Assembly (NCBI RefSeq): GCF_000262465.1
Contig: NZ_CM001489.1
Location: forward strand, 4,098,028-4,162,027
Source of the DNA: Frankia sp. QA3
Lineage (GTDB): Bacteria > Actinomycetota > Actinomycetes > Frankiales > Frankiaceae
Direction: 5' to 3'
Length of the DNA stretch: 64,000 bases
Within the stretch, counting starts at the first letter, position 1, and each line of letters opens with the position of its first letter. Positions 8,319 through 51,557 of the stretch are shown here, piece by piece. Both the position numbers and the translations under genes were made by a program. A model generated the notes under the pieces. It did no database searches and was not told where the DNA came from. It was given only the letters and a program-made list of their open reading frames with translations.

Positions 8319-8333
8319 CGTCCGCAGACCGGT

Positions 8334-30547: not shown

Positions 30548-30678
30548 GAACCCGTTCGCCGGCAGGTCGGCGAGCTGGTCGGCGACTGTGCCGAGGTCCA
30601 GCCCTACTCGAACCCGGGCGGGTCGAGCGAAGCTCGACGCCGGGGGGGCTCGGAGGGTCGTCCCCCCGAAAAAAATCG

Positions 30679-30724
30679 CGGCCCGCCGGGAAGCTGGACA
30701 AAGTCCAGCGATCACGGCGGGCCG
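30679..30724. repeat. Nested perfect hairpins next to the left attachment site
   Basis: CGGCCCGCC (30679-30687) pairs with GGCGGGCCG (30716-30724), and inside lies GCTGGAC-AAA-GTCCAGC (30693-30709). The structure ends four bases before the attachment repeat at 30729. It may be a terminator or a recombination arm site. Confidence 0.6.
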
Positions 30725-30728
30725 GCTC

Positions 30729-30753
30729 GTGGAGGTGGCGGGAATCGAACCCG
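30729..30753. repeat. Left attachment repeat (copy of tmRNA 3' end)
   Basis: 25 bp identical to the acceptor/T-arm end of ssrA, beginning GTGGAGGTGGCGGGAATCGA. The sequence on its right does not fold as a tRNA or tmRNA, so it is only a fragment, as expected for an att site. Confidence 0.85.
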
Positions 30754-31333
30754 ATCCTGACCCGAGCGGCGAAGATCGGAAGTAGCTGAAACCACTGTCT
30801 CGCAACGGCTCGTAGATCGATCTTGATCACTGGCGACCGGTCGAAATTGCCCAGAAGCGGGACCGCTCTGGGTGCCAACTGGGTACCAGGAGCGGTCTTC
30901 ACACTTGATCGGCAGAGGCTGCGTCGACGCTACTCTCCGTAGCTGGAGATGATGTTAACTCTGGATGGGATAGCCGCCCGCTCCTACCCGCCGACGGCCC
31001 AGCCGCCTCGGCGAGCACCGACACTGTCTTGCCGTCGGATCGAGTGATCCTCTCGAGGGTCCGAACCGGCGGACGGGACGCAAGATCTTCTAATATGCGT
31101 GCCCAGGCCCGAGCGACGGCGGGACGCATGCTGTCCGATGGCCGGCGGATGGTGAGCGCGGAGGACGGGCTTGGCACGCTGGCGCGGTAGCGTCAGAATC
31201 CAGGCACGGAGTGAGACCTGAGGTGATTGCTACAGCAATCGGATGGTCACGCTCGGCATTGCACTCCCCTGTGCGTTACTGCATGATGGCGGCGTGACGT
31301 CCACTGTCCGGTATTGCCTGGGTATCTGCTGAC
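30754..31333. other. Left end of the island, no gene seen
   Basis: 580 bp without a convincing gene. One minus-strand frame (30899-31177) has no recognisable motif and is not called. The kinase promoter should lie at the right end. Confidence 0.45.
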
Positions 31334-33100
31334 GTGTCGACCAATGCTTGGGGCGATCCCAGCGGGCTGGCGAGCGGCGTACAGCGGTTCGGGCCCAACG
31401 GACCGCAGCCTGTCGGAGGCCCGGCGTTCACGCCGTTGACCCCGAACGACCCTCGCGAGGTCAACGGGTACCTGCTTCGGGCCCGGATCGGCGAGGGCGG
31501 CATGGGCTCGGTCTACCTTTCCTACACTCCTGGCGGCCGGCCGGTGGCACTGAAGATCGCTCGGGCGGAGTTCGCCGCCGATCCCGAGTTCCGCCGCCGC
31601 TTCGAGCGAGAAGTGACCATCGCTCAGCAGGTACAGGGCCCCTATACCGCCCCCGTGATCGACTGCGACCCGCACGCGGTACGGCCGTGGCTGGCCACCG
31701 CCTATGTCGCCGCGCCCTCCCTCGCCGCTGCCGTCGCCCGGCAGGGCCCCCTGCCCGCGGAGACCACCCTCGTCCTGATCGCCGGCGTCGCCGAGGCGCT
31801 GCAGTCGATTCATCTCGCTGGGGTCATCCACCGGGACCTCAAACCAGCCAACGTCATCCTCGCGGCGGACGGCCCGCGGGTCATCGACTTCGGTATCTCG
31901 CGAGCGGTCGAGGCCTCGTCCGCGGCGCTCACCCAGACCGGGGCGCGGATCGGCACACCCGCGTTCATGGCTCCCGAGCATGTTCAGGGCAGGGCCCTCG
32001 ACTCGCCCGGCGACATCTTCTCCCTCGGCTCCACCGCCTACTACGCGGTCACCGGCGAGTACCCGTTCGGCGGCGATGCAGCGGTGTTTTACCGCATCGT
32101 GAACGAACAGCCCGACTGGGACCGCTGCCCGGAGCAGGTCCGGGAGCTGCTGGCACGCTGCGTGCAGAAGGATCCGTCCACGCGCCCCACCCCGATGGCC
32201 CTGATCGAGCTGTGCCGGGAAGCGTCCACCGACGAGCGACTACGCATCGGCGAAGGCTGGCTGCCGCCCACCGTCCGCGCGGACCTCACTCGCTATCTGC
32301 TTCCCCGCTCCGAGCAGTTCCCTCCCGCTCTGTCGGCCGCAGCCTCCCAGCCGCCCACGCCACCGCCCCCTACGTGGAATCAGTCGGCCAGGGGACCTGG
32401 CCCCGTGCCCCGGCACCTACTGCCGTGGCTGGTCAGTGCGGTCAGCGTGGCGGTGCTCGCGGCGGTCGTCATCGCTCTGCTCGTGAGATCGGGCGATTCG
32501 CCATCGGATCAGAAGAACCTCAGCGCCGCCGATGGATTCGCCGCCACGAGCGAGACCGGCACGCCGCGCTCGAGCCCGGCCTCGAAATCGAGCGCGAAGC
32601 CGCCTTCGAACCCGACGCCGGCCGCCCCCACCAGCTCTCAGGACGTCAACCTCTACCTCGCTAATTTCACCGGCCTGGGAGCAGTGGGCACAGTAAAATC
32701 GGAACCGATCACCATGAACGGGCAGGACATGGCCCACAGCATTTCAATCCAACCACTCTGGTACGAATTCACCAACGATAAGGAATTGGGGAAGATCGAG
32801 TACGATTTGGGTCGCCATTACCGCCAGCTCCGGACGACAATCGGGCTTTCCGACGATTCCGACAGTGACGCCGTGTATGAGGTTCAGATCGACGGCGACG
32901 GCCGGCAACTCGCTGACACGACGGTGCGCCTCGGCAGCCCAGTACCGATCGACCTCGACATGTCGGGCATCCTGCGACTACGATTCGTGATCACGCATAC
33001 GGCTGGAGACACCTCCGATGACGTGAGAATTCATGCACATTCGCGGGTGGTCCTCGGAGCCGCCCAGGTGACCGGACCACATGGTCAGACGCCAAGCTGA
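31334..33100 (+). CDS. Transmembrane Ser/Thr protein kinase with extracellular NPCBM-like domain
   Basis: 588 residues. Kinase domain at ~45-300: G-loop IGEGGMGSVY (52-61), Lys74 in VALK, HRDLKPAN (166-173), DFG (185-187) and APE in MAPEHV. A Pro-rich linker, one membrane helix at about 358-382 (LLPWLVSAVSVAVLAAVVIA), a Ser/Pro-rich stretch and a C-terminal beta domain follow (YLANFTGLGAV ... ITMNGQDMAHSISI ... YDLGRHYRQLRTTIGLSDDS), which resembles NPCBM carbohydrate-binding modules. This implies an outward sensor with inward kinase. It may signal to the lanthipeptide locus (inference). Confidence 0.9.
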   Translation: MSTNAWGDPSGLASGVQRFGPNGPQPVGGPAFTPLTPNDPREVNGYLLRARIGEGGMGSVYLSYTPGGRPVALKIARAEFAADPEFRRRFEREVTIAQQVQGPYTAPVIDCDPHAVRPWLATAYVAAPSLAAAVARQGPLPAETTLVLIAGVAEALQSIHLAGVIHRDLKPANVILAADGPRVIDFGISRAVEASSAALTQTGARIGTPAFMAPEHVQGRALDSPGDIFSLGSTAYYAVTGEYPFGGDAAVFYRIVNEQPDWDRCPEQVRELLARCVQKDPSTRPTPMALIELCREASTDERLRIGEGWLPPTVRADLTRYLLPRSEQFPPALSAAASQPPTPPPPTWNQSARGPGPVPRHLLPWLVSAVSVAVLAAVVIALLVRSGDSPSDQKNLSAADGFAATSETGTPRSSPASKSSAKPPSNPTPAAPTSSQDVNLYLANFTGLGAVGTVKSEPITMNGQDMAHSISIQPLWYEFTNDKELGKIEYDLGRHYRQLRTTIGLSDDSDSDAVYEVQIDGDGRQLADTTVRLGSPVPIDLDMSGILRLRFVITHTAGDTSDDVRIHAHSRVVLGAAQVTGPHGQTPS

Positions 33101-33417
33101 TCGCATGTGCATCGAGGCCGATACTCAGCGATTTCGTGGCCCATACGGTGCGTTTTCTCAGTGGAAGCGCATTGCGCCGCACGGGACAATCGCTCGCTCG
33201 CCATGGCCACGAACACCCCACTAAAAAGGTGCAGAGTCGGAGTGGCTGCCACCGGGAAACGAGGATACCTCCCGCTTGAGGGGACCCCGGGGCCGAGTGG
33301 GGCGGATCGAAACCGACAAAACGGGGTTCTATTTCCATAGTGACACCGCTACAGATAGTCTATCCTTGATGCAGCAGCAATGCTGCTGTCCGGGACAGGG
33401 AAGGAGCCTTCCGCTTC
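33101..33417. promoter_or_regulatory. Intergenic region with stacked palindromes before the XRE gene
   Basis: Three short perfect inverted repeats precede the XRE start: GATAGTCTATC (33354-33364), CAGCAGC-AAT-GCTGCTG (33372-33388) and GGAAGG-AG-CCTTCC (33399-33412). The last one contains the AAGGAG ribosome site, so translation could be controlled by its folding. The first could be an operator. The remaining 250 bp shows nothing. Confidence 0.55.
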
Positions 33418-34884
33418 ATGGGTAGGCCGGCCGGTCGTGTCGAGCAGGATGAGTTGCGGTCTCGGATGCGCGCGGCGGGGATGAGCCACGACGAGATCGC
33501 CGTGGAGTTCGCCCGCCGCTACCGGCTACGGCCCCGCGTCGCTCACCGGGTCGCACGCGGCTTGTCGCAGACGCAGGCCGCGGCCAATCTCAATGTCCAC
33601 GCCGCCCGCCTGGGGATGGACTCCGCGGGCAGGGCCCCGATGACCGGCTCGAAGTTGTCCGAACTGGAGAACTGGCCCCTGCCGTTGCGGCGCCGCCCCA
33701 CTCCCCGGATCCTCGCTCTGCTCGCCGAGGTCTATGACACCAGTATCCACAACCTGCTCGACCTCGACGACCGCGAGAACATGCCCCCGGCGGACCTCAT
33801 GGTCATCAGCCAGATCGGAAACGGGCCATTACCAGCGGCGCACCACGCCGTTGCAGGCGGGGCCGCGCAGGAAGCTCTGATCGACGGCAGCATCGTCTCG
33901 ACGACCGCCGCGATCGACAACAGCGAGCGTGAACGCCCGTCCGCCCCGGTGCTGGGGTCAGATGTTTTCGATGAGATGTCAGCTATCGGCGTGGACGGCA
34001 TCGATTCGGTGGAGCACTGGGTCGAGCTGTTGAGTCTGGTCGCCGGGAAGTCCAGCGTCAGCGGGGCCGGTTCCGTCTGGGGTCTGGCCCGCAGGCAGCT
34101 TGCCCTGCTCGATGCGTGCCGTCGGATGTCGACGCTGGAGAACCGCCAGCTTCTTGCGGTCCAGGCCCGGTGGTCGGAGTTTCTCTCCTGGCTGGCAGAC
34201 AACCTCGGACGTGCGCGGGCTGGGCGCAAATGGGCCGAGCTGGCGTTCAGCCAGGCCACCGAGGCGGGCGACCATCGCACTGCCAGCTATGTCCTGATGC
34301 GACGGGCGCAGCAGGCTGCTGATCAGGGACGCGGCGGGGAAGCCGTGGCGCTCGGAGAAGGCGCGGCTAGCCTCGACTCCAGCAGCGTGTGTACCGCCGC
34401 GCTGTGCCTCGTCCGCCAGGCGCACGGCCATGCCCTCAACCGCGACGCCACCGCTTCCAGGGCTGCCATCCGACAGGCTGATCTGCTACTGGCCAGCGTC
34501 GAACCGGATCCGGACCCGCTGGATGGCCACTGCACGGACCTTTACGTAGCGGCCTACGAGGGTCGCTGCCGGCTGCTGCTCGGCGATCTGGACGGATCGA
34601 CGCGGATACTGGAAGAGGTCCTGGCAGCCTGGCCGGCAGGGCTGAGTCAGGATGAGGTCATGTGGAGGGCCTGGCTTGCGGACGCGCACACCGCGGCCGG
34701 ACGCGCGGCCGAGGCAGGGGCCGAGGGACTACGTGCGCTGGAACTCGCCCAGGCCATGGGCTCCACACGCGCCGACACCCTGCTCGACGGCATGGCGGGA
34801 GCACTCGCGGAAAACGATCGGGTGGTGGAGGTCGGCCAGTTCCTCGCCGCGCGCCGGGTCGTGAGCGCCGCCAGGAGGAGATAG
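33418..34884 (+). CDS. XRE-family regulator with TPR-like C-terminal region
   Basis: 488 residues. An N-terminal HTH with an extended form (MSHDEIAVEFARRYRLRPRV, then AHRVARGLSQTQAAANLN, and K-L-S-E-L-E-N-W-P) is followed by ~370 residues of helical repeats (AELAFSQATEAGDHRTASYV, A-L-C-L-V-R-Q-A-H-G-H-A, GRAAEAGAEGLRALELAQAM). This layout is common in actinobacterial regulators beside RiPP and other specialised-metabolite genes. It ends 8 bases before the creatininase-like gene, so the two are one operon, upstream of the precursor gene. Confidence 0.85.
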   Translation: MGRPAGRVEQDELRSRMRAAGMSHDEIAVEFARRYRLRPRVAHRVARGLSQTQAAANLNVHAARLGMDSAGRAPMTGSKLSELENWPLPLRRRPTPRILALLAEVYDTSIHNLLDLDDRENMPPADLMVISQIGNGPLPAAHHAVAGGAAQEALIDGSIVSTTAAIDNSERERPSAPVLGSDVFDEMSAIGVDGIDSVEHWVELLSLVAGKSSVSGAGSVWGLARRQLALLDACRRMSTLENRQLLAVQARWSEFLSWLADNLGRARAGRKWAELAFSQATEAGDHRTASYVLMRRAQQAADQGRGGEAVALGEGAASLDSSSVCTAALCLVRQAHGHALNRDATASRAAIRQADLLLASVEPDPDPLDGHCTDLYVAAYEGRCRLLLGDLDGSTRILEEVLAAWPAGLSQDEVMWRAWLADAHTAAGRAAEAGAEGLRALELAQAMGSTRADTLLDGMAGALAENDRVVEVGQFLAARRVVSAARRR

Positions 34885-34892
34885 CCATTCCT

Positions 34893-35603
34893 ATGATCAC
34901 CACGGCGACCAGCGTCGAGGTGGCGCGAGCCGGAGCACGGGCGGCCGTGTTGCCGGTGGGCAGCTTCGAGCAGCACGGCGCCCATCTCCCCCTCACGACG
35001 GACACCTTGATCGCCCAGGCGATCGCCGAGGCTGTGGCTGACGAGTACGGTCTGCTGCTGCTCCCGCCGGTCACGTTCTCGTGTTCCCACGAGCACGGCT
35101 CCGCGCCGGGAACAGTGAGCATCTCCTCTACCACCCTGACCGCGGTCATCCGCGACATCGCCGCGTCGCTGCGCCGATCCGATATCCCCGTGCTGGTGCT
35201 CGTCAACGGGCACGGCGGCAACTACGTTCTAAGCAACATCGTCCAGGAGGCCAACGTCGACGGGCCGGCCATGACCCTGTTCCCCGGCCGGGCTGACTGG
35301 GCGGCAGCGCGTACCGAAGCCGGGCTGGAGACCGACGGCCATGACGACATGCACGCCGGCGAGCTGGAGACCTCCATCCTTCTCCACGCGCACCCCGACG
35401 TCGTCCAGCCCGGCTGGGAAAGCGCCGACGAGGGCGGCGGCCCCCGCCCCCATCTGCTCATCCACGGCATGCAGGCATACACCCGGACCGGAGTGATCGG
35501 CCGCCCCTCGCTCGCCACCGCCGAGAAGGGCAAACGGCTGCTGGACAGCCTGGCCAGCCTGCTCGCCGACCACCTCGACGCCCTCGGACTGCCTGGCCGC
35601 TGA
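34893..35603 (+). CDS. Creatininase-family amidohydrolase / putative RiPP peptidase
   Basis: 236 residues. Metal-site motifs of the creatininase fold are present: E26-Q-H28-G, D37 in LTTD, H107 in NGHGGN and H154/E157 in MHAGELETS. The family includes creatininase, other amidohydrolases and MftE, the peptidase that trims the mycofactocin precursor. It directly precedes a lanthipeptide precursor gene in a locus that has no other protease, so a role in leader removal is a reasonable inference, not shown by sequence. The ATG is 12 bases after AGGAGGAG, and a non-ATG start nearer to it cannot be excluded. Confidence 0.85.
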   Translation: MITTATSVEVARAGARAAVLPVGSFEQHGAHLPLTTDTLIAQAIAEAVADEYGLLLLPPVTFSCSHEHGSAPGTVSISSTTLTAVIRDIAASLRRSDIPVLVLVNGHGGNYVLSNIVQEANVDGPAMTLFPGRADWAAARTEAGLETDGHDDMHAGELETSILLHAHPDVVQPGWESADEGGGPRPHLLIHGMQAYTRTGVIGRPSLATAEKGKRLLDSLASLLADHLDALGLPGR

Positions 35604-35738
35604 CCGGGCCCGCGCTGGCCTCCGTCAGCACTCCGAGCCGCGCCTGGCCACCCGAACACAGGGGCTCGTGCCCCGGCGTGTCGAGCCGTAGTAAGAGCTG
35701 TCGCGCTCGGCGTATGCGCAGGTCAGCGGCCGGCTGAG

Positions 35739-35758
35739 GGGGAAGTAAAAGCTTCCCC
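35739..35758. promoter_or_regulatory. Hairpin upstream of the lanthipeptide precursor
   Basis: GGGGAAG (35739-35745) and CTTCCCC (35752-35758) are perfect complements with a 6-nt TAAAAG loop, midway between the creatininase-like gene and the precursor. It could be a terminator or attenuator that makes the precursor transcript separate. The rest of 35604-35928 should contain the precursor promoter. Confidence 0.5.
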
Positions 35759-35928
35759 GCCGTGGGAATGGCCGTGAGTCGACGGCGCAGCATCATTACC
35801 TCTCGTTACAGCCGAAGGTCGGCGTAGCGACCCCACAGCGTCACCCGGTCCCCACTCCGCTGGGCGCCGAACGCGACGTACACCGAGAGCGACCGGCAGA
35901 CGGGGTCAACGAACGGGAGGAGAAGTAG

Positions 35929-36090
35929 ATGTCCATCGTGCAAGAGGTCGGTCCGTCGAGCGTGATGCCGGACGAGTGGTTCGACCTGCCGATCACCATC
36001 GTCAATGACGACAGCTGCGTGGCAAGCGACGGTTGCGACACCTCGGATGGCTGCTCGTCGACGTGCCCGTCGGCGTGCGCCAGCTCGTAA
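35929..36090 (+). CDS. FxLD-type class I lanthipeptide precursor peptide
   Basis: A 53-codon gene. The leader contains EWFDLPITIV (residues 16-25), a variant of the FxLD box with Pro in place of Asp. The C-terminal part begins near S29-C30 and has five Cys (30, 36, 42, 46, 50) with Ser/Thr at 29, 33, 38, 39, 43, 44, 45, 48, 52 and 53. The segment CDTSDGCSSTCPSAC is nearly the consensus core I recall for this family. Two Asp-Gly pairs (34-35, 40-41) could be targets of the PCMT-like methyltransferase. A strong GGAGGAG ribosome site precedes the ATG. It directly precedes the LanB gene. Confidence 0.9.
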   Translation: MSIVQEVGPSSVMPDEWFDLPITIVNDDSCVASDGCDTSDGCSSTCPSACASS

Positions 36091-36148
36091 CGGGATGAGC
36101 GCCGTGCCGCCTTCGACGGGCTTTGAGGGGCGCGGCGTAGAGGTTCAC

Positions 36149-39100
36149 ATGGACATCACGGTGGCTGCGGGAAGGAGCATGCGGATGGGCGGGACGCTGT
36201 ACCGGCCGGCAGGTCCCGCGTTGCTGCGAGCTGCAAGCCGCCCGCTGGATGGCGTGGTGTCGGACTGGCCGGTGTTGGAGGACGCGGCGGCGTGCCGGGA
36301 CTGGTTGGCGAGGGTCTGGCCGCAGGCCCGGGAGTCGGTTGGGCTCGCCAGCGGTGCGTTGGCCGCGCGGGTCGAGCAGCTCGTTGCCGGGCGTCCCGTC
36401 ACCGACCGGCGGGTGCGGGCTGCTGCGGCGACGGTCGTGCGGTACCTGGTGCGTTCCGGGGGCCGCTCGACGCCGTTCGCGCTGTTCGCGGGTGTCGCGC
36501 CGGCCCAGTTCGGCCAGGTGGCGTCGGTGCGCATCGGTGATCGCCATCGGTCGACGCTTCGGGCCGATGCCGCGTGGCTGGATGAGATCGTCAGCCGACT
36601 GGAGGCGGGCCCGGTCCTGGCGCGAGTGGAGGTCGTGTTCAACAGTCTGGCTGTCCAACGAGCTGGACGGCTGGTTGTGCCTCGCGCCGACGGCCACGTC
36701 GAGATCCCCCTGACCCCACCAGTGCGGCTCGTGCTGGATACCGCAAGAGGACCAGTGCGATTCGCCGAACTGGCTGACCGGCTGGACGAAGAGTTCGCCG
36801 GCGTCGGCCGTGAGCGCATCGAGGCGATGCTGCGCCAGTTGGTCGCCGAGCAGTTTCTGACCAGCAGTCTTCGGGCACCGATGACGGAGACCGCTCCGCT
36901 CGGTCACCTAGTCGCGGCCCTTCAGCGAGCTGGTGCCTGCGATCTGGCCGAGGTCGGGCTGCTTGCGGATGAGTTGGCCGCGATCCACGCCCGGCTCGGG
37001 GAACTCAACGCAGCGCCGGAGCTGGGAGCCCAGGCGGGTCCGCGTGCGGATCTGATCGCGGTGATGGACCGGGTCAGCCCGCAGCAGCGCTCGCCCATGG
37101 CGGTCGACCTTGTCCTCGACTGCGACCTGCACCTGCCCGTGTCCGTTGCTTCGGACCTGGCAGTGGCCGCCGACGTCCTGACGCGGCTGGGTCGGGAACC
37201 GCTGGGACCGGCCGCGTGGGCGGACTACCACCGCCGGTTCGTCGAACGCTACGGCGTTGACAGCGTCGTTCCGCTGATCGACGTGCTTGATGAGGCATCA
37301 GGGCTTGGCTATCCGGCGGGATATCCGGGCTCGGTGCTACCCATTCCCGCGGTGACGGTGAGCGATCGAGACCAACGGCTACTCGCGCTGGCCTGGAAGG
37401 CGCTTGCCGACAACGGTCGCCTTGAGCTCACCGACGCGCTCATCGAGCATGCCACCGCTGGTGATCTGTTCGATCCGCGCTTCATCCAGCCGCACGGAGA
37501 GATCGCAGCAAGGATCCATGCCCGCAGCATCGAGGCGTTGAACGCCGGCGACTATCTGCTGGCCGTTACCCCAGCGCGCGCGACCGGAACGCTGTCCGCG
37601 AGATTCCTGCCCGCGACGCGAGACGTGTCGATGGCCGACGCCTATGGAGCGGTTCCGGCCCTGCATGAGGGCGCCACCGCAGTGCAGTTGTCCTGCCCAC
37701 CCAGATTTGCCCGCGGCCAGAACGTCGCGCGCCTTCCCCAGTTCCTGCCCGAGGTGCTCGCCCTCGGCGAACCGCCGTCCCATGGGCCGCATGGGCTGGG
37801 AGCTGGGGACCTGGCGCTGACCGCGACCGGCCGGGGCCTGCTGCTCCTCGAAGCCGCCACCGGGCGGATCATCGATCCGCAGGTGTACCACGCGCTGGCA
37901 CTCGACCGGCAGATGCCATCACTGGCGCGGTTCCTGGCGCACCTGCCACGCGCGTTCGCCGCCTCGCTGACCGCGTTCGATGTCGGACCGGCTGCCGGCG
38001 CTCTGCCGCACCTACCCGAAGTCCGCTACGGCCGGATCATCCTCGCCCCCGAACGCTGGCGCCTCCACACCGTCGACCTGCCCGGCCTCGATGTACCGGC
38101 TGCCGCCTGGCGCGGCCAGCTCGCGCAGTGGCGGCAGCAGCTTCGGTGCCCAGAACTCGTGGAACTGGCCGACGGCGACATGACCCTGCGGCTGGATCTC
38201 ACAGTCCCGGCCCACGCCACGATCCTGCGCGGACATCTCGCCGGCAAGGGCTTGGCCGTGCTGAACCGGGCGGTGCCCGGCGAGGAGCTGGGGTGGATCG
38301 GGCGTGCGCACGAGGTCGTCGCACCGGTGTTCCGCGCGGGTCCGCCCGCACCGAACAAGCGTGCTGCGGTGCTGGTCAACAGGGTCAACGCCGACGGCGA
38401 CCGGCCCGGGGATCCGAATGCCCGATGGCTCTCCGTCCGCGTCCATACACACCCCACCGCCATGGACGATCTCATCGCGACCCACCTTCCGGACCTGCGT
38501 GCGCGGCTCGATGGTGCGCCGCTATGGATGGTGCGCTACCGCAACAACGAACAAACTGATCATCTGCGCATCCGCATCGCCACACGGGGGCCGAACCATG
38601 CGGCCCGTGTGACTGCCCTCGGCGCGTGGGCCACGACGCTGGCCAGGACCGGCGCCGCCGGCCAGGTGGCGTTCGATACGTATTTTCCGGAAGCTGGCCG
38701 CTACGGTGCCGGCGCGGCTCTTGAAGCCGCCGAGGCCGTTTTCTGCGCCGACACCGCCGCCGCGATCATCGCGCTGCGCAAGCCACCGACTGGCCTGCAT
38801 CGTGACACCGTCGTGGCGTTGTTGATGCTTGACATCGCCTCCGCCTTCCTCGGTGGCATGCACCCGGCCGCCGACTATCTGACCACACGGGTCATCGCCA
38901 AACCGCAGACCATCAATCACCGCGTCGTCGGCGAAACCACCCGGCTGGCCCGCCACGGCGTACCCCGCGACCTGCCGCACCTACTCGGCGAGCTCGCCGA
39001 TGCTTGGGCGGCCCGTGCTAAGGCTCTGATTGTCTACCGTGCGGCGTTACCCGGCCAGATGGACACCGTGACGGTCGCGGGGTCCCTGTTGCACCTCTCC

Positions 39101-39208
39101 TACAATCGGCACCGCGGGATCAACCGGGATCACGAGGCTGCCTGCCTTCGGCTGGCCCGCGGCGCCGCGCTCGCCTGGCGCAACTCCCAGCAGGCGGTCC
39201 CGGCATGA
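36149..39208 (+). CDS. Class I lanthipeptide dehydratase LanB (full length)
   Basis: About 1019 residues. The N-terminal Lant_dehydr_N domain begins with LYRPAGPALLRAASRP and includes RYLVRSGGRSTPFALFAGVA, the tRNA-Glu-dependent glutamylation part. The C-terminal SpaB_C elimination domain starts near WLSVRVHTH and includes the LWMVRYRNNEQTDHLRIRIA block and FDTYFPEAGRYG. Both halves are present in one chain, as in true class I dehydratases rather than split thiopeptide ones. It should dehydrate Ser/Thr of the precursor core. ATG 36149 follows TAGAGG by five bases; ATG 36095, four bases after the precursor stop, is in frame as an alternative. Confidence 0.93.
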   Translation: MDITVAAGRSMRMGGTLYRPAGPALLRAASRPLDGVVSDWPVLEDAAACRDWLARVWPQARESVGLASGALAARVEQLVAGRPVTDRRVRAAAATVVRYLVRSGGRSTPFALFAGVAPAQFGQVASVRIGDRHRSTLRADAAWLDEIVSRLEAGPVLARVEVVFNSLAVQRAGRLVVPRADGHVEIPLTPPVRLVLDTARGPVRFAELADRLDEEFAGVGRERIEAMLRQLVAEQFLTSSLRAPMTETAPLGHLVAALQRAGACDLAEVGLLADELAAIHARLGELNAAPELGAQAGPRADLIAVMDRVSPQQRSPMAVDLVLDCDLHLPVSVASDLAVAADVLTRLGREPLGPAAWADYHRRFVERYGVDSVVPLIDVLDEASGLGYPAGYPGSVLPIPAVTVSDRDQRLLALAWKALADNGRLELTDALIEHATAGDLFDPRFIQPHGEIAARIHARSIEALNAGDYLLAVTPARATGTLSARFLPATRDVSMADAYGAVPALHEGATAVQLSCPPRFARGQNVARLPQFLPEVLALGEPPSHGPHGLGAGDLALTATGRGLLLLEAATGRIIDPQVYHALALDRQMPSLARFLAHLPRAFAASLTAFDVGPAAGALPHLPEVRYGRIILAPERWRLHTVDLPGLDVPAAAWRGQLAQWRQQLRCPELVELADGDMTLRLDLTVPAHATILRGHLAGKGLAVLNRAVPGEELGWIGRAHEVVAPVFRAGPPAPNKRAAVLVNRVNADGDRPGDPNARWLSVRVHTHPTAMDDLIATHLPDLRARLDGAPLWMVRYRNNEQTDHLRIRIATRGPNHAARVTALGAWATTLARTGAAGQVAFDTYFPEAGRYGAGAALEAAEAVFCADTAAAIIALRKPPTGLHRDTVVALLMLDIASAFLGGMHPAADYLTTRVIAKPQTINHRVVGETTRLARHGVPRDLPHLLGELADAWAARAKALIVYRAALPGQMDTVTVAGSLLHLSYNRHRGINRDHEAACLRLARGAALAWRNSQQAVPA

Positions 39209-39405
39209 CCGCGACCCGTCACCATCGGCCGGTGGTTCCGGCTCGTCCCGCTCCTGGCGGGGAAACCGGCGGGTATGGGCAGAGGACGAGCCTGCCGGAC
39301 TCGCAACCGGACCGACGCGCCGCTGTTCGCGCCCCCTGCTCCGATCAGCGGTGTCCGCTGCCGCACCACTCGCGACCAAGTCTTCCTCCGACAAGGACAC
39401 ATTGA
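39205..39405 (+). CDS. Possible small coupled ORF between LanB and the methyltransferase
   Basis: A 66-codon frame whose ATG overlaps the LanB stop (ATGA) and whose TGA overlaps the ATG of the methyltransferase (TGATG). The product would be rich in Pro, Arg and His, with two Cys (APCSDQRCPLP) and no known family. The double overlap is suggestive but may be chance. The composition is poor, so I am unsure it is a gene. Confidence 0.25.
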   Translation: MTATRHHRPVVPARPAPGGETGGYGQRTSLPDSQPDRRAAVRAPCSDQRCPLPHHSRPSLPPTRTH

Positions 39406-40607
39406 TGACCACTGCTACTTCCGGTACCGCCGCCGAGCTCCACGCCGACATGGTCCAGAAGATCACCAGCAGCCGGCCGGGGCTAGGTGAGCCTGTCGTC
39501 CACGCGCTGCGTGCGGTGCCCCGCCACCTGTTCCTGCCGGGCGCCACGCTCGACGAGGCGTACAACCCCTACAAGGCAGTGATCACCAAGACTGCGGCGG
39601 ACGGCACTCACCTGTCCTGCGCCTCGGTCGCGACCCTCGTCGCCGGGATGCTGGCCGAGCTTCGAATCAGCCCCGGCGATCGGGTCTTCGAAGTCGGTGC
39701 CGGCACGGGCTACAACGCCGCACTACTCGCTGAGCTCACCGGTCCCGCCGGGCAGGTCGTCACCGTCGACATCGACGAGGAGATCACCGAACAGGCATCG
39801 AACGCCCTGATGGCGGCGGGCTACAGCGACGTGCGCGTCCTGACCAGTGACGGCGCACTCGGCGACGAGACCGACGCGCCCTTCGACAAAATCATCGTCA
39901 CCGTCGGCGCGTGCGACATCCCCGATGCGTGGTTCACCCAGCTCGTCCCCGGCGGGCGGATGGTCCTGCCACTGCGCTGGCGGGGACAGACCCGCGGCGT
40001 CGCCTTCGTCAAGGGCGACGACGGCGTGCTTCGTTCGGAGTCGGTGTTCCTCTGCGGCTTCGTCCCGATGATCGGCCAGGACGTCGAACGCGCCGCCGCG
40101 CTCCACACCGACCCGCTCGTCCGTGTCCACTACGACGTCGACCAGGACATCGACCCGGCCAGGCTGACCGGCATCTTCGACAGCCCCAGAACCAGCGCCT
40201 GGTCCGGGGCAACCGTCGGCCCGCAGGACCCCATCGACGGGATCTGGCTGCGCGCCACCGCGACCGACCCGGCCGTCTGCCGAATCGAGGCAAGCCCTGA
40301 TGCGGTCAGCACCGATCTCTGCGCGCCCTTCATCCCGAACCTGAGCCCCGTGCTGATCGACGGTTCCTCGCTGGCCTACCTCACCAAGCGCAGGTTGGAA
40401 GGCCCCGACCCCGTCTGGGAGCTCGGCGCCCACGGACACGGACCCGACGGCCGCACCCTCGCCGAGCGGCTGTGCGGACACATCCACACCTGGAACATCG
40501 ACCGCACAGCCCGCCCATCCCTCACCGCCGTGCCCCTGGCTGCCCACGCCGACCTCACCGACCACGCGATCGTCAAGAAGGACTGCGCGATCACCGTCAC
40601 CTACTAA
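39405..40607 (+). CDS. PCMT-like methyltransferase of the FxLD lanthipeptide system (LanS-type)
   Basis: 400 residues. The N-terminal half is a protein-L-isoaspartate O-methyltransferase fold: K-T-A-A-D-G-T-H-L-S-C-A-S-V before motif I (RVFEVGAGTGYNAALLAEL at ~93-111), then VVTVDIDEEI and a PFDKIIVTVGACDIPDAWFT block. The C-terminal ~200 residues are an extension specific to the group called methyltransferase, FxLD system. Related enzymes (OlvSA type) methylate an Asp in a lanthipeptide to form aspartimide and isoaspartate. With Asp-Gly pairs in the adjacent precursor, the same reaction is likely here. The ATG follows AAGGA. Confidence 0.9.
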   Translation: MTTATSGTAAELHADMVQKITSSRPGLGEPVVHALRAVPRHLFLPGATLDEAYNPYKAVITKTAADGTHLSCASVATLVAGMLAELRISPGDRVFEVGAGTGYNAALLAELTGPAGQVVTVDIDEEITEQASNALMAAGYSDVRVLTSDGALGDETDAPFDKIIVTVGACDIPDAWFTQLVPGGRMVLPLRWRGQTRGVAFVKGDDGVLRSESVFLCGFVPMIGQDVERAAALHTDPLVRVHYDVDQDIDPARLTGIFDSPRTSAWSGATVGPQDPIDGIWLRATATDPAVCRIEASPDAVSTDLCAPFIPNLSPVLIDGSSLAYLTKRRLEGPDPVWELGAHGHGPDGRTLAERLCGHIHTWNIDRTARPSLTAVPLAAHADLTDHAIVKKDCAITVTY

Positions 40608-40712
40608 AGCCACCCGCGTGTGCGAGGAGGCGACCACCGGCGGCGCCCCTGCACGCCACCGGGCTCGGTTGTCTAGCGCCGAAGCGCCCGGACCGTCAGG
40701 AGGCGATGGGCG

Positions 40713-41993
40713 ATGTCTCTGAACGGCGACTGGCGAGAGCGTGCGGCCACGGTTGCTGGCCGCCTCGCCGACGCGCTGTTCGCCCCGCCCGCGGCCAAGC
40801 CCGGCGGCGACCGGGCTTCGAGCGATCAACGCTGGCGAGGCCAGTCACTGGCCGCTGGCGCCGCTGGCGTCGCCGTGCTCCATGGCATACGTGCCCGCGC
40901 GGGTATCGGAGATTGGGCCACCGTCGACGCCTGGCTGATAGCCGCGACGAGAGAGGAGCTGAGCGCCGGGACGGGCGCCGGCCTGTGGTTTGGCGCTCCG
41001 GCGCTCGCCTTCGCCTTGGCCACGGCAGCGGCACCCGGCCGCTACCGATCCGCCCGCCAGCATCTGGACACCGCCGTCGCGAACATGATCGAGCGCCGGC
41101 TCGCTGCTGCCAACGGGCGCATCAACGCCGGTCAGCGGCCGGAACGGGCCGAGTACGATCTCGTCCGCGGTCTGACCGGGCTCGGTGCGCACCTGCTTAC
41201 GTCCCGCCCGGACGCAGAGCAGCTCCGCCGGATTCTGGCCTACCTCGTCCGGCTGTCCGAGCCCCTGCCCACCAGCGGCACCGTCGGGTTGACGCTGCCT
41301 GGCTGGTGGAACGGCGACCTTCCGGTGGGGGCGTCGGTTGACGCGTTCGCCGACGGGCATGCGGACCTCGGGATGGCCCACGGCATCGCCGGCCCCCTCG
41401 CACTACTCGCGCTCGCCTACCGTCGAGGCATCGTCGTCCCCGGCCACCTCGACGCCCTGAATCGCATGTGCGACTGGCTCGATTCCTGGCGCCAGGACAG
41501 CCCGACCGGCCCCTGGTGGCCCGAGAAGATCACCCTCAGCGAGCTAACGGCGGGCCGCCCCGTCCAAGCCGGCCCAGGCCGTGCCTCCTGGTGCTACGGC
41601 ACCCCTGGCCTTGCCCGCGCCCAGCAACTTGCCGCCATCGCACTGACCGACATGGCCCGCCAGGAACGTGCTGAGGCCGCGCTCGCCGGCTGCCTCAGCA
41701 ACCCCGCCCAGCTCGTCCAGTTCGTCGACCCGACGCTCTGCCACGGCTGGGCCGGCCTGCTCACCACGGTCCACCGCGCCGCCGCCGACGCCCGCTTCCA
41801 CCCTCTCGGCAACCACCTCCCAGCTCTGACCGACCAGCTCCTCGGCAGCCTCGACGCTGCTGAGCCCGCCAGCAGATGGCCACCCGGCCTCATCGAGGGC
41901 ACCGCCGGCATCGCCGCCGTCCTGCACAGCCTCACCATCGACACCACCGCCACCTGGGAAACCGCCCTCCTTCTCGGCCTCCCCCAGACATAG
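40713..41993 (+). CDS. Lanthionine cyclase LanC
   Basis: 426 residues. The zinc ligands of LanC cyclases are present: C294 in SWCYGTPG and C343-H344 in LCHGWAG, with the upstream MAHGIAGPLALL block around H223 and a GLIEGTAGIAAVL end. The enzyme adds Cys thiols to dehydrated Ser/Thr to make (methyl)lanthionine rings. It is 105 bp after the methyltransferase and is the last gene of the modification operon. No transporter or subtilisin-like protease follows. Confidence 0.93.
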   Translation: MSLNGDWRERAATVAGRLADALFAPPAAKPGGDRASSDQRWRGQSLAAGAAGVAVLHGIRARAGIGDWATVDAWLIAATREELSAGTGAGLWFGAPALAFALATAAAPGRYRSARQHLDTAVANMIERRLAAANGRINAGQRPERAEYDLVRGLTGLGAHLLTSRPDAEQLRRILAYLVRLSEPLPTSGTVGLTLPGWWNGDLPVGASVDAFADGHADLGMAHGIAGPLALLALAYRRGIVVPGHLDALNRMCDWLDSWRQDSPTGPWWPEKITLSELTAGRPVQAGPGRASWCYGTPGLARAQQLAAIALTDMARQERAEAALAGCLSNPAQLVQFVDPTLCHGWAGLLTTVHRAAADARFHPLGNHLPALTDQLLGSLDAAEPASRWPPGLIEGTAGIAAVLHSLTIDTTATWETALLLGLPQT

Positions 41994-42156
41994 CCAGTGC
42001 ACGTGAGCGACCTTCCGCTCGACCGGAGAGTGTCGATTCTCAGCTCTTTATGTCGAACAAATCACTCGGTCACGCTCGACACCCAGCTCACCGCCGCCCG
42101 CGCCCCACCGGTGTCCCGCCCGCCAGTCTGATCCAAATCTCCGACTCGTCAGCCCG

Positions 42157-45100
42157 TCAGTAGTTCTTCTTCACATAGTCGTAGGTCTTGTCAAAGAGCA
42201 CGCCAGTGACCGGCAGGCTGAAGTCCTTGAGCGTGGTGCGGATGGCCTTGCGCACCTCCCGGTCGCCGCGGTCGGAGCTGGTCCAGCCGGTGTAGGAGAC
42301 CTCAAGGACGATTTGGTCGATCCGGAAGACGATGTCGGGCACGATCTTGTGCAGCCCGGCAGGGGTGTTCTGCTCGACGATCTGTGTGAGCGCCCCGATC
42401 TTCGGGTCGTAGAGACGCTCGTCTTCGGCGAGCGTGCCTTCCTCGGCCGCGCGGTCGGCAGCGACGACGTCGTGGGCGACCTGGAGCGCGTCCTCTAGGA
42501 ACTGCAGCGACTCCTCGACCGAGGAGATGGCGCGCTGCCGCAGCTTCTCGATCCGCTCGGCCAGGCTCTTGTAGGCTGCGGAATCGGTGTCCTGGCCGAG
42601 CCGGCGCTTGAGCCGGGCCTCGATGGAGCCGAGGACCTCCTCCACGATCTGCCCAGGAGCTTTCGGGTCGGGCACAGGCATTGGTACCTGGAGCGACTGG
42701 GCGATCTTCTTGATCAGCGCGATCCCGGCCGCGTCCAGGGTGACGTTCCGAGAGACCAGCGGCTTCACCGAGATGTCATCCATGTGGGCGTGGATCAGTG
42801 CCTCGGTCTTCGCGCCGAGCTTGGCCCACAGCAGTCCCTTGTCGAGTCCCTTGGGCTGGATCGACGCGTACAGCTTCGCCAGCCACAGATACGCGCTCTG
42901 GAACGGAGCTAGCATCGGGTTGGGGTCGAGGAACTCCCAGATCCGCTGCACCGCGGTGAACGTCTCCACGAACGTCGTCCGTGCCTCGGAGTCGACCGGG
43001 ATCCGCTCATGCGCCTCGGCGAGCGAGGCGAACGACGCGTCGCTGGTATCGATCCCGGCGAAAAGCGAGGTCAGCACGGTCATGTCGGTCATGAACCGCC
43101 CGACCAGGCTGGCCACGTCGTACACGGTCGGCTTATCGGGCTCAGTCCCGTCCTTCGTCTTGGGGCCGAGCAGCGCGTCGCCGATGGCCTTGGCGAGTCC
43201 GATGTAGTCGACGACCCGGCCGTACTCCTTGCGTTGCCCGGTCAGCGGGTTCTTCCATGGCCGGTTGGGCCGGGTGATGGTCTGGAACAAGTTGGCCGCC
43301 TTGAGCGGCTTGTCGAGGTAGAGCACGCCCTCGATCGGCGCGTTGAATCCGGTCATCCACTTCGCGGTGACGACCACGAACGACAGCGGGTCGTCGACCT
43401 TCTTGAAACGACGCTTGAGCCCTTCCTCGGCCTCGTCGGAGAGCAGATACTTCCTGTACGCCGACGGGGTGCTTTTGGAGTTGTCCACATGCATCACCAC
43501 GCCGACCTCGCGCGCGACACTGGACCCGTCTGGCAGCGTCATCGCCGCGGCGCGGCGTTCCAGTTCGGCCTGAATCGCGGTCGCGTACGCCACCACCAGC
43601 TCCTGGTTGTACGCCACGACCTGCGCCTTCTGCCCTAGCGGAGCCACGTAGGTGAGGTAATGGTCGACGATGTCGGCGCAGACTGAGACGACCCGCTCGG
43701 GGTTCTTCAGGATGGTGGCGATGTGGCTGGCCTTGCCGGAGAGGAACTCCTTGGCCTCGTCGTCGAGCCCTTCGTCGTCGGCGAGCTCCTCGAACGCCTC
43801 GTCGAGCTGTTCCTTGCTCAGCTCGAACTTCACCGCCCGGCCTTCGACGATGACGGGTTTGGTGAAGCCGTCGGAGATCGAGTGCTCCATCGTGTACCGG
43901 GACAGCACCAGGTCGGGGTCCTCGGGGTTGCCGAAGAGCTTGAACGTGTCCCGCTCACCGGCCTTGACCGCAGTGCCGGTCATCCCGAAGAACGTCGCGT
44001 TCGGCACCGCCTCCCGCCACGCGTCACCGAGCTTGCCCTCCTGGGAACGGTGGGCCTCGTCGACAAGCACGATGATGTTGGACCGGTCGGTGAGGAGACC
44101 GGCCTCGGCGAACTTGTGCGGCGTGGTCACCACCACCCGCGGCCCGGGCTTCTTCAGCACGGTCCACAGTGCCTGCTTGGTCTTCGGCACCTCAAGGGTC
44201 GGCATCCCGGCGGTGCGGAACATCTCCGCGGTCTGCCGCACCAGGTCCTTACGGTCCGCGATCACGATCACCGTCGGCGACCCGACCCGCTCATCGCGCA
44301 ACAGCCGCGAGGCGGCGAATGCCATCAGTTCGGTCTTGCCCGACCCCTGGTGATGCCACAGCAGCCCGCCGCCACCCTGCTCGTTCCTGGACCCGGCGAG
44401 CACCTTGTCATGGATCGCGACCGCGGCCTCGACCTGCGGATAGCGAGGCAGGAACTTCACATCCTGCTCCGAGGCATCCCGGGCATGCCGGTACATGGCG
44501 AAGTCCCGCAGGATCGCCAGCACCATCGCCGGCGTCAGCAGCGTACGGGCATCCCGTTCGACCCGGGCCGGCCCGGACAGGTTCGGGTCACCACCGGTCT
44601 CACCCCACGGCGCCCAGAACTCGCTCTCCGGATCCGGTTCGGCGCGCACCGGCGCCATCCGTAACTCGAGTCCCTCGGTCGCCACGTTGAACACGTTGGG
44701 CGCGAAGAACTGCGGATACTCCACTTCGTAGACGTCGTAGAGGTCCTTCGCCGCGTTGAACCACGACACCGTCTGCTTCACCGGCGTCTTGGTCTCCACC
44801 ACCACGAGCGGGAACCCGTTGACGTAGTAGACGACGTCGAACCGCCGCGCCTCGTGCCCGCCCTTGATCGTCACCTCATCGGCCACGACCAGCCGGTTGG
44901 CCTCCGGGTCGTCGAAGTCGATGAACCGCCGCGGCACGTGCTTCCCGGCAATGGTCACGAACGGCTGCTGCCCCCGCAGGATCACCGTCAGCGCCTCGTT
45001 GGCCGCAACAAGGCCGTTGGTGGCGTCCAGCATCGCCCGGTTGACCTCGGCGATCACCATGCCAGTCGACTCCTCGTCGTCGACCAGGCCCGGGTTGCGC

Positions 45101-45246
45101 TGAAGCAGAGCCTCGCGCACCCACGACTCGACTACGACCTCGTGCTCATCACGCGGCAGGTCGCCACCGGATACGTGCTCCCACCCGGCATCCTGGGCCC
45201 ACTCCAGCAGCGCTGCTTGAATCGTCGAAGCCTCGCTCCAACCCAC
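42157..45246 (-). CDS. hsdR: Type I restriction enzyme, R subunit (HsdR)
   Basis: 1029 residues. The N-terminal nuclease core is seen in RRFDVVYYVNGFPLVVVETK (D...ExK type). The SF2 translocase motifs follow: Walker A HHQGSGKTELMAF, DEAH in IIVLVDEAHRSQEG and TGTAVK as motif III. The C-terminal helical region binds the methylase core. It starts at GTG, three bases after the hsdS stop, and is last in hsdM-hsdS-hsdR. Confidence 0.95.
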   Translation of the reverse strand: MGWSEASTIQAALLEWAQDAGWEHVSGGDLPRDEHEVVVESWVREALLQRNPGLVDDEESTGMVIAEVNRAMLDATNGLVAANEALTVILRGQQPFVTIAGKHVPRRFIDFDDPEANRLVVADEVTIKGGHEARRFDVVYYVNGFPLVVVETKTPVKQTVSWFNAAKDLYDVYEVEYPQFFAPNVFNVATEGLELRMAPVRAEPDPESEFWAPWGETGGDPNLSGPARVERDARTLLTPAMVLAILRDFAMYRHARDASEQDVKFLPRYPQVEAAVAIHDKVLAGSRNEQGGGGLLWHHQGSGKTELMAFAASRLLRDERVGSPTVIVIADRKDLVRQTAEMFRTAGMPTLEVPKTKQALWTVLKKPGPRVVVTTPHKFAEAGLLTDRSNIIVLVDEAHRSQEGKLGDAWREAVPNATFFGMTGTAVKAGERDTFKLFGNPEDPDLVLSRYTMEHSISDGFTKPVIVEGRAVKFELSKEQLDEAFEELADDEGLDDEAKEFLSGKASHIATILKNPERVVSVCADIVDHYLTYVAPLGQKAQVVAYNQELVVAYATAIQAELERRAAAMTLPDGSSVAREVGVVMHVDNSKSTPSAYRKYLLSDEAEEGLKRRFKKVDDPLSFVVVTAKWMTGFNAPIEGVLYLDKPLKAANLFQTITRPNRPWKNPLTGQRKEYGRVVDYIGLAKAIGDALLGPKTKDGTEPDKPTVYDVASLVGRFMTDMTVLTSLFAGIDTSDASFASLAEAHERIPVDSEARTTFVETFTAVQRIWEFLDPNPMLAPFQSAYLWLAKLYASIQPKGLDKGLLWAKLGAKTEALIHAHMDDISVKPLVSRNVTLDAAGIALIKKIAQSLQVPMPVPDPKAPGQIVEEVLGSIEARLKRRLGQDTDSAAYKSLAERIEKLRQRAISSVEESLQFLEDALQVAHDVVAADRAAEEGTLAEDERLYDPKIGALTQIVEQNTPAGLHKIVPDIVFRIDQIVLEVSYTGWTSSDRGDREVRKAIRTTLKDFSLPVTGVLFDKTYDYVKKNY

Positions 45247-45249
45247 GCT

Positions 45250-46461
45250 CTATGCGACCTCCTCCAAGAGGGAGTCATATGTTACCGGGATCTCGATCTC
45301 CTGGGCAAGCAGTGCTGACAACAGCGCAGCGCGGAACGCTCTCACCTGGAAGGCTTCCGCACGAACGGAGGAAAGTCCGGCAGCGATGACGTCCAGTTCC
45401 GCAGCGGTCCTCGTCTGGTCTTCGATGGTGGGGAGAGCTACCGGAACGTCCAAGACGCGCACGGCGGTGATGTGCTTGATGTTGGTCCCGCTTGAGATGC
45501 CGAGGAACGTCCCGGACTCGAACGCCCACTGGCACCAGTGATGCGTGTACTCGCTCGTGGACACGCCTTCGACGCTGCGGAAACGGAGGAGGGTCTTCTG
45601 AAAGCAGACGACGCCCGGCAGTTCCTCGTTCCAGACGGCGGTGAACCCGACAGCCTTTGGGCTCGCGCTTCCCTCGGACACCAGCACGTCACCACGCTGA
45701 AGTGCAAACTTCTCCTGCTCGGCGGGAGCGAAGTTCATCTGCTTGATGTCGGTCAGGTCGAGCGACCCGTCGCCCACATTCGCTGAGCGCAGGTAATTCG
45801 TCATGTATGGACCGGTTGCATGCTGAGGCGCCCGCTGGCGACCCATCAACACCGAAAACGCGTCACGCACTGGCACGGTTCGAACGTCTGAACGCTCGAA
45901 GAGCTCGGCTCGGCGGGCAGTCAGTAGGCTTCGGAGACTGCTCGCCTCGTCTGCGAGGTGTGCCAATTGCGCACCCACTGAAGCGAGCAGATCGACGATC
46001 CGACGCTGCGCCGCCAGCGGTGGCAGAGCGATGGAGTAGACGTTGAACTGGGCTTCCTTCCAACGGTTCCGGCTCGCCGTGGTGCCGGTGCTGACGCGCT
46101 CGATGTAGTTCCAGACTCCGGGCTGGCGGAAGTGCAGCAGGAGGAACTCGGGGAGCAGTCGCTTGCGGTCGCACTCGAAGAGGGGGAACTCGTTCGAGAC
46201 GTACGAGCCGTCTAGGTCGTCGCCGACCAGCCCGAACGATCCCTTCCAAGCGAAGAGCCGGTTGTAGATGAACTGTCCTGCGGAGACTCGGTAGAACCTC
46301 GTCGCCTTCGACGTCTCGTGCGTGACAGTCTCGCGGAGGAACGGCCCTTCGGTGTACCATTTGACGCCGAGCAGCGAGTAGGACCTGTCGACCTCGACGG
46401 AAACCTGATCCTGGATCTGACGGGTCACGTCACCGAGACGAACCCTCGGCCACTCATCCAT
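45250..46461 (-). CDS. hsdS: Type I restriction-modification specificity subunit (HsdS)
   Basis: 403 residues with two target-recognition domains separated by the conserved helical spacer (IALPPLAAQRRIVDLLASVG near the middle, LPTIEDQTRTAAELDVIAAG near the end). It determines the bipartite DNA sequence bound by the complex; the sequence cannot be predicted from this. It overlaps the end of hsdM by 8 bp. Confidence 0.94.
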   Translation of the reverse strand: MDEWPRVRLGDVTRQIQDQVSVEVDRSYSLLGVKWYTEGPFLRETVTHETSKATRFYRVSAGQFIYNRLFAWKGSFGLVGDDLDGSYVSNEFPLFECDRKRLLPEFLLLHFRQPGVWNYIERVSTGTTASRNRWKEAQFNVYSIALPPLAAQRRIVDLLASVGAQLAHLADEASSLRSLLTARRAELFERSDVRTVPVRDAFSVLMGRQRAPQHATGPYMTNYLRSANVGDGSLDLTDIKQMNFAPAEQEKFALQRGDVLVSEGSASPKAVGFTAVWNEELPGVVCFQKTLLRFRSVEGVSTSEYTHHWCQWAFESGTFLGISSGTNIKHITAVRVLDVPVALPTIEDQTRTAAELDVIAAGLSSVRAEAFQVRAFRAALLSALLAQEIEIPVTYDSLLEEVA

Positions 46462-47968: not shown

Positions 47969-48714
47969 AGGTGGATGGGATCCTTCATCGTGATGGCAGT
48001 GGTCCAATCATGCCGTGCTCGGCTGGCGCGTCAGACCGCTACCCGCCCCGCGCGCATCGGACCATCGCACCACGCAGGGGCACCGGCGGTACAGCACGGA
48101 AGTACAGCAAACGGCCCGGCTACGGCTGATCGAGACCAGCCAACGGTGTGTTGCCCGGTTCACCCCTCTGCGACCGCTAGGCGGGTAGTTCGGGACGAAG
48201 GCGAGAGCGAACGCCGCTCGGCCCGGCTCCACACGGAGGTCCGCCCTGATGCTGGACTCGACGGCGCTGTAAAGCATCCGGCGAAGGGCAGCTGATCACG
48301 TTCGATAGCCTGGTCTGGTCCCGGCTCGCGGGTGTGGCAGCACGGTGGCAGCCAAGCCTCTGGACCTCGGCGGACGAACGTGGACGTCCATAGCACCCTC
48401 ACCATCCTTGACCTGCATCAGTGGGCATCGGCGGACGTTCACGGACAACCGACCGATGGTTTCATAATCCGCTGGTCGGCTTGGCACTAGCGGGACAACA
48501 CAGACGTTCGGGACAGGGCGCCCAAGTCTACGGCCTGTAGGTATTCGTTGCGGTGCTCTTGGGTGGAGTACCGGCAGGCTCCGTGCAGTCGACAACCGCG
48601 ACGACCGGTTTTCGACTGCTGCGACACTGTCTAACTGATCAGTGCTGCGAGCTGCGCGAATGCACTGGCGGGCGATCTCAGAGCGAGATCATTTAAGGGT
48701 ACCCTTCCTTCTGA
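47969..48714. other. Intergenic region between hsdM and the recombinase fragment
   Basis: About 745 bp with no convincing gene on either strand. It should hold the hsd promoter. The N-terminal DNA-binding part expected for the recombinase is not found in any frame here, so it appears deleted rather than frameshifted. Confidence 0.5.
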
Positions 48715-50038: not shown

Positions 50039-50259
50039 AGGTACGGTTGTATCGCCTGACGGTTCATGGTACCGCAGGACGCCGGTGGACGGAGCGTCGC
50101 AACCGGCGGCGGACGCCAGCCGGGTCGGCGGCGGACGGCAGCGCCGGCGGCCGGTGGCCGGTCCGAGGCGGGATTGATGTGCGGCCGCGGGCATGTCGGA
50201 CCTCTCGTGGTAGTTGTACGGGCAACGGCAGCCCGTCCGCCCGCCCCGGGGAGAGCATC

Positions 50260-50733: not shown

Positions 50734-50807
50734 AGGCGCCCGCCGCCCGCACCGCGACCCCACCCGGCCGGCGGTTGCCGTGCGGACGACTCAGGGTCGG
50801 TGACACT

Positions 50808-51500: not shown

Positions 51501-51557
51501 ACCTGGCACTGCCGTCCACCAACCGGGACGGGCGGCGGGCCCGGTGCCGTCCGGGCG

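Follow-up and report, generated by a model that had tools for sequence, protein, structure and literature searches.

The window analysed here, a stretch of 64,000 nucleotides from Frankia sp. QA3, contained a tmRNA gene (ssrA; 49671-50038, minus strand; RF00023, 160.9 bits; 49673-50038 according to ARAGORN) that had served as an integration target. The 3' end of this gene carried the right copy of a 25-bp direct repeat (49673-49697), and an identical left copy was found at 30729-30753. The exact repeat flanked 18.9 kb and delimited an island at 30729-49697, which is larger than the coordinates given in an earlier note on this DNA. A tyrosine integrase open reading frame (48754-49785, plus strand), which was also read in three frames, matched only the C-terminal part of PF00589 (positions 126-168 of 172), and the enzyme may have lost its N-terminal part. 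In the relative G399, we found an empty site with a single repeat copy at a tmRNA. With the tmRNA 3'-end repeat at both edges, a partial integrase domain and this empty site, the region has the features of an ssrA genomic island; the repeat and the empty site confirmed what the earlier note had proposed. The cargo included a serine/threonine protein kinase with an NPCBM domain (31334-33100, plus strand; PF00069, 140 bits; PF08305, 37.7 bits) and a type I restriction-modification set on the minus strand (42157-48007; TIGR00348, PF01420, PF02384 and PF12161), composed of hsdR (42157-45246), hsdS (45250-46461) and hsdM (46454-48007).

Four lan genes were located on the plus strand of the island in the order A-B-S-C. 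The precursor gene lanA (35929-36090) encodes 53 residues and scored 50.1 bits against TIGR04363 (cut-off, 30), even though its leader box reads FDLP instead of the literal F-x-L-D; the D of this box was missing in other precursors too. For lanB (36095-39208), the ATG four bases past the precursor stop was chosen as the start. The encoded dehydratase is full length, as PF04738 matched residues 76-711 (580 bits) and PF14028 residues 778-1022 (111 bits), and it has both the glutamylation and the elimination regions of a class I LanB. The lanSA gene (39351-40607 from a GTG, or 39405-40607 from an ATG) encodes the PIMT-like methyltransferase of FxLD systems, which scored 377.2 bits against TIGR04364, where the curated equivalog cut-off is 320. 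The cyclase gene lanC (40713-41993; PF05147, 125 bits) encodes the motifs MAHGIAG, WCYGTPG and CHGWAG. Upon alignment with the solved LanC chains 8byk and 2g02 (NisC), the latter two, the zinc-ligand motifs, lined up with those of NisC, as in a class I LanC. A genome profile search revealed three TIGR04363 matches above the cut-off in this genome, including that of the window, and none in 14 control genomes; the named genes are therefore beyond chance.

Alignment of the window LanB with NisB showed that all nine of the active-site-region positions checked were conserved. In particular, NisB Y80, R83, R87, T89, R784, R786, E823, R826 and H961 corresponded to LanB Y117, R120, R124, T126, R825, R827, E866, R869 and H1000, respectively. 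R786, E823 and R826 belong to the active-site region of NisB. The other six residues are mutated in a study of NisB, where the effects of R784A and T89A were mild (PMC4341554). A LanB lacking glutamylation or elimination residues, which the earlier note had named as grounds for rejection, was thus not what we found. That note had described the locus as an FxLD-type class I lanthipeptide set with everything needed to form the rings, and had suggested matching the precursor and the methyltransferase to TIGR04363 and TIGR04364. Both matches exceeded the curated cut-offs, the full-length LanB and the LanC complete the set, and TIGR and Pfam matches placed the precursor, LanB, methyltransferase, LanC and creatininase genes where they had been reported. 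The DNA of this window thus shows directly the four lan genes and the families they belong to, as well as the conserved residues and the island.

Upstream of the lan genes and on the same strand, we found a regulator gene (33418-34884) and a gene for a creatininase-family hydrolase (34893-35603; PF02633, 217 bits). The earlier note had listed an XRE regulator and a creatininase as preceding the set. Their positions were correct, but the regulator belongs to the NsdA family (NF053720, 112.5 bits; cut-off, 75) and is not a plain XRE protein, its HTH_31 match (22.2 bits) falling below the Pfam cut-off of 27; nor did the creatininase hold as a part of the set, as described below.

To judge from these features, the locus is a lanthimiditide operon (class I, FxLD/LanSA kind) that looks intact, has its genes in the order A-B-S-C and forms part of the cargo of an ssrA island; we put the probability of this reading at about 0.85. 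The core contains a conserved Asp in the sequence T38-S39-D40-G41-C42, which is the TxDGC core motif of lanthimiditides as given in PMC10787088, and a PIMT homologue is encoded alongside. The operon is a further member of the lanthimiditide clusters, the kind represented by OlvA/OlvSA. OlvSA was characterised from Streptomyces olivaceus NRRL B-3009 (PMC13001092), and we infer from the strain name that the precursor and methyltransferase of our locus L059 are OlvA and OlvSA. The two systems share a precursor, LanB, LanC and a PIMT homologue with a C-terminal extension, and the methyltransferases were 47% identical over the whole length, including this extension. The core of the window precursor, TSDGCSSTCPSACASS, and that of the S. 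olivaceus precursor, TGDGCAKTCASSCASS, have the end TxDGCxxTCxSxCASS in common. In contrast, the gene order is A-B-C-S in S. olivaceus, the window core has a longer, Cys-containing N-terminal part with a second DGC, and the window locus differs further in its leader FDLP and its location on an ssrA island. Similar features are described in Walker et al. 2020 (PMC7268733) for the class I precursor families I 1-4, which are actinobacterial and have a fully conserved core Asp and a PF01135 methyltransferase in the cluster, as in the window. The view in the earlier note that FxLD systems are mostly bioinformatic is outdated, since OlvA/OlvSA has been reconstituted and 1305 LanSA-type clusters have been counted (PMC13001092 and PMC10787088). 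Judged from open-licence papers, the product of the window locus is likely still undescribed.

By analogy with the OlvA system, LanB would glutamylate and eliminate core Ser/Thr residues, and LanC would form thioether rings, among them a methyllanthionine between T38 and C42 enclosing S39-D40-G41. LanSA would methylate D40 only after ring closure, and the methyl ester would pass into an aspartimide, whose opening would yield mostly isoaspartate; this predicted conversion of the core Asp after cyclisation is taken from OlvSA as presented in PMC13001092. Leader cleavage and export would fall to enzymes encoded outside the island, somewhere in the genome. The precursor additionally contained S33-D34-G35-C36, and two D[GN]C motifs in a single core were found in 1 of 55 precursors, that of the window. 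LanSA might modify both D34 and D40, leaving an aspartimide or isoaspartate at each of these nearby positions, and each would then lie within or next to a thioether ring of its own. We consider such a two-site substrate rather unlikely: the residue two positions ahead of D34 is neither Thr nor Ser, which means that the known TxDGC ring has no copy there, and the relative L015 shows SESC at this position. The natural two-DGC core nevertheless offers a system for asking whether one LanSA acts twice and what purpose isoaspartate serves, its role in these peptides being called largely unknown in PMC10787088.

With no classical leader protease in the set, the creatininase looked attractive for that role. 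It lies with the regulator directly upstream of the lan genes on the same strand; its best NCBIfam match was MftE, the mycofactocin enzyme, a creatininase homologue reported to be a RiPP peptidase (PMC10885120); and in the FxLD locus of Kribbella sindirgiensis (L027), a real counter-example, a creatininase adjoins an NsdA-like regulator, divergent from the lan genes. Positions 33418-41993 would then work as a single unit whose lanthipeptide protease is of a new type. We consider this highly improbable, and the candidate is now weaker. The window protein shares the creatininase family with MftE but scored 139.1 bits against TIGR03964, below the cut-off of 172, and is not tied to lan genes. A single-sequence phmmer search at 1e-5 of 80 methyltransferase-anchored loci, not all of them full clusters (the methyltransferase stood alone in 24 of 83 ordered loci), placed a creatininase near one; L015, the only other A-B-S-C locus, had none in its flanks and no tmRNA. 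We also sought the gene in 13 genomes of the genus and 396 of the phylum and read nine neighbourhoods. The relative G407 (genome 85% complete) carried an intact, 94% identical creatininase at the corresponding site beside its tmRNA, with no LanB detected at 1e-40 and no TIGR04364 match above the cut-off. Homologues of about 60% identity adjoined a GTP-cyclohydrolase-II-like gene in six genomes (Pfam-checked in one, L153) and a deaminase-family gene in L154, which indicates small-molecule chemistry. The evidence makes the creatininase a separable island gene, probably outside the lan pathway and not the missing leader peptidase.

The operon could also be dying, as related copies are broken. All four of the closest relatives found were incomplete: L014 retained only LanB residues 937-1032, with no precursor found and a contig ending inside LanC, L015 had a LanB split over frames, and L181 and L182 contained LanB fragments. 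Assembly may contribute to this in L014 and L015, given the contig end and the unknown bases in the latter. The island integrase also seems truncated. Nonetheless, a decaying remnant that has lost expression or function appears improbable, because all four window frames are open, the checked residues are kept, and dN/dS was 0.23-0.33 against L014, L015 and L182 (against L014/L015, 0.29-0.32 for the methyltransferase and 0.33 for LanC) and 0.62 against the L181 fragment, pairwise values that average both branches. L015, from Pseudofrankia asymbiotica, shared the gene order, the leader FDLPITIV and the core end DTSDGCSSTCPSACASS, with a 76% identical methyltransferase; the A-B-S-C order occurred in these two of the 83 ordered loci. 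The Frankia lineage thus gains an intact-looking, island-borne lanthimiditide cluster whose closest copies found are broken.

As the earlier note had observed, no transporter or classical leader protease was seen within the island. Nothing there was recognised as a gene for immunity or transport, and an antibiotic role of the product is possible. A motif scan of the window, L005 and L015 gave no ABC-ATPase match. The absence of a transporter is not special, since among the 22 A-B-C-S loci that spanned 20 kb or more, the scan found an ABC-ATPase-like open reading frame in 2. NsdA-type regulators as specific partners of FxLD clusters were suggestive only: 16 exceeded the cut-off in this genome, one lay within 10 kb of two of its three FxLD loci (the window and L005, with none at L004), and L152 retained the regulator end without lan genes. 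In the methyltransferase tree, the window LanSA fell in the large branch holding all 35 A-B-C-S enzymes. We also considered the methyltransferase-only loci as a separate system and inspected gene calls in six; decay or truncation is likelier, as 18 of the 24 lay in this same branch and several stopped at contig edges.

The lan locus of the window (G000:C1:4098028-4162027; the genome, G000, is a single contig of 7.59 Mb) is real and well founded and belongs to a kind already known, with a mildly unusual core. The precursor gene lanA (35929-36090) encodes a 53-residue peptide, MSIVQEVGPSSVMPDEWFDLPITIVNDDSCVASDGCDTSDGCSSTCPSACASS, which scored above the cut-off of the FxLD precursor family TIGR04363, and the lanSA product (39351 or 39405-40607) exceeded that of the FxLD-system methyltransferase family TIGR04364, as the earlier note had expected of both. 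Pfam matches agreed with the proposed identities of LanB (36095-39208), LanC (40713-41993) and the creatininase (34893-35603). The LanB ATG that we chose, at 36095, lies four bases 3' of the precursor stop. The description of LanB as full-length with its glutamylation and elimination residues also held upon alignment with NisB (4wd9, whose chain numbering is that of the literature), in which all nine positions compared were kept. Y117, R120, R124 and T126 of the window LanB corresponded to NisB Y80, R83, R87 and T89, and R825, R827, E866, R869 and H1000 to NisB R784, R786, E823, R826 and H961; R786, E823 and R826 are further positions of the NisB active-site region. The NisB mutant table in PMC4341554, which covers Y80, R83, R87, T89, R784 and H961, shows that dehydration was abolished in Y80F and H961A and reduced by changes at R83 and R87, while T89A and R784A had mild effects. 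The LanC motifs were WCYGTPG and CHGWAG, compared with WCYGGPG and CHGYSG in NisC. The top match of the methyltransferase among solved structures was 1dl5, according to a passage of PMC10787088 the sole solved enzyme of the RiPP-associated clade.

An alignment of this genome's three methyltransferases served to search genome contigs for relatives; of 352 obtained, the best 80 were kept. Among these, the closest named enzymes came from L014, of a Frankia metagenome genome (77% identical), and L015, of Pseudofrankia asymbiotica (76%), followed by one at 54%. Gene order was read in 83 loci (these 80, the window, L004 and L005): A-B-C-S in 35, methyltransferase alone in 24, S-A-B-C in eight and other arrangements in 13, with B-S-C in L014 and A-B-S-C confined to the window and L015. 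In the midpoint-rooted tree of the 83 methyltransferases, the window, L014 and L015 enzymes formed one group (support 100/100) within a branch of 66 sequences (100/99) holding all 35 A-B-C-S enzymes, among them that of Streptomyces olivaceus NRRL B-3009. The enzymes of the eight S-A-B-C loci all fell on the opposite side, together with the other two LanSAs encoded in this genome, whose placement on long branches is unsure. These two belong to further S-A-B-C FxLD clusters, L004 and L005 (G000:C1, ~1.79 and ~0.91 Mb), and are divergent, being 38 and 37% identical to the window enzyme. LanSA-like methyltransferases whose fetched stretch held no LanB or LanC match were also observed (L016, L033, L049, L053, L067, L083 and 18 more loci); in the tree, enzymes of methyltransferase-only loci were mostly nested among lanthipeptide LanSAs. 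TIGR04363 matched in seven of 396 phylum genomes, in six above the cut-off, and TIGR04364 exceeded its cut-off in 10 of the 13 genomes of the genus.

From the 83 loci, a profile expanded from seven starting precursors recovered 55, with none in 30 loci. One D[GN]C motif was present in 50 of the 55 and none in four; the window precursor alone had two. Five cysteines occurred in four precursors. According to PMC13001092, OlvSA of the lanthimiditide system works only once OlvB and OlvC have acted and methylates an Asp within a loop closed by methyllanthionine; the ester gives an aspartimide and then 70-80% isoaspartate. Judged by homology, the window core fits this chemistry: the T38-C42 segment would be the counterpart of the OlvA methyllanthionine ring, and D40 that of the Asp methylated by OlvSA. 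D34, which may or may not be modified, lies in SDGC and has no Thr or Ser two residues ahead of it. Among the titles listed for open-licence papers on lanthimiditide and on lanthipeptides in connection with FxLD, isoaspartate methyltransferases, creatininase or Frankia, none points to the window product.

Broken relatives of the locus were also found. At ~2.61 Mb of the same contig, L181 carries a LanB C-terminal piece (9094-9923, 92.5% identical over 830 bases) and, 4.7 kb from it, a piece resembling the island integrase (14581-14879, 84%), apparently what is left of another such island in this genome. G397 holds another LanB fragment (L182), L014 only the LanB end, and in L015 LanB is split across frames. 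Relative to the window, dN/dS of the methyltransferase was 0.32 for L015 and 0.29 for L014, that of LanC 0.33 for L015, and that of LanB 0.23 for L182, 0.41 for L184, a distant one, and 0.62 for the piece in L181.

We considered whether the creatininase could act as leader peptidase. In favour, Kribbella sindirgiensis (L027) has a creatininase and an NsdA-like regulator beside an A-B-C-S cluster. Among solved structures, the creatininase matched creatinine amidohydrolases. In G407 (L152), the tmRNA gene is flanked by a 152-residue integrase end (PF00589, 27.0 bits, narrowly short of the 27.1-bit cut-off) and a creatininase gene that is intact and shares 94% identity with that of the window; this locus lacks the 13.7 kb that holds the lan and restriction genes between window positions 35658 and 49322. 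The creatininase and the lan operon are therefore separable, although G407 may have lost its lan genes. For CREATININASE, creatininase homologues at 58-63% were found in eight phylum-sample genomes, the next being at most 44%. A GTP-cyclohydrolase-II-like gene, recognised by Pfam in L153 and by eye in the other five, adjoins the creatininase in six of the eight (L153 and L155-L159, from genomes we take to be Streptomyces); this pair forms a conserved neighbourhood there, possibly of a pteridine-type pathway. The L154 creatininase has as neighbours a gene of the deaminase family and one for an NsdA-like regulator. Regulators resembling the NsdA-family protein of the window (33418-34884) were observed near several FxLD clusters (L005:15392-17083; L093:2-1750 and 7257-9176). 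Since this genome has many genes of the NsdA family (16 above the cut-off), a link of such regulators to FxLD clusters is only suggestive.

The proposed ssrA island was confirmed: identical 25-bp copies of the tmRNA 3' end mark its two edges (30729-30753 and 49673-49697). In G399 (L198), window 30604-30753 joins 49667-52726 at one repeat copy at a tmRNA gene, and this junction represents an empty site. Besides the lan operon, the island harbours the regulator and the creatininase, a Ser/Thr kinase, a type I restriction-modification set and an ORF for an integrase whose N-terminal part may be missing. Directly left of the island repeat, 30643-30728 is a repeated element, with matches of 74-92% to all or part of it in 12 of the 13 genus genomes, often in several copies. 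In another genus genome (G396:C1, ~1.49 Mb), close to a copy of this element at 4873-5009 of L200, a 111-bp piece (L200:5194-5304) was 92% identical to window methyltransferase positions 39577-39687.
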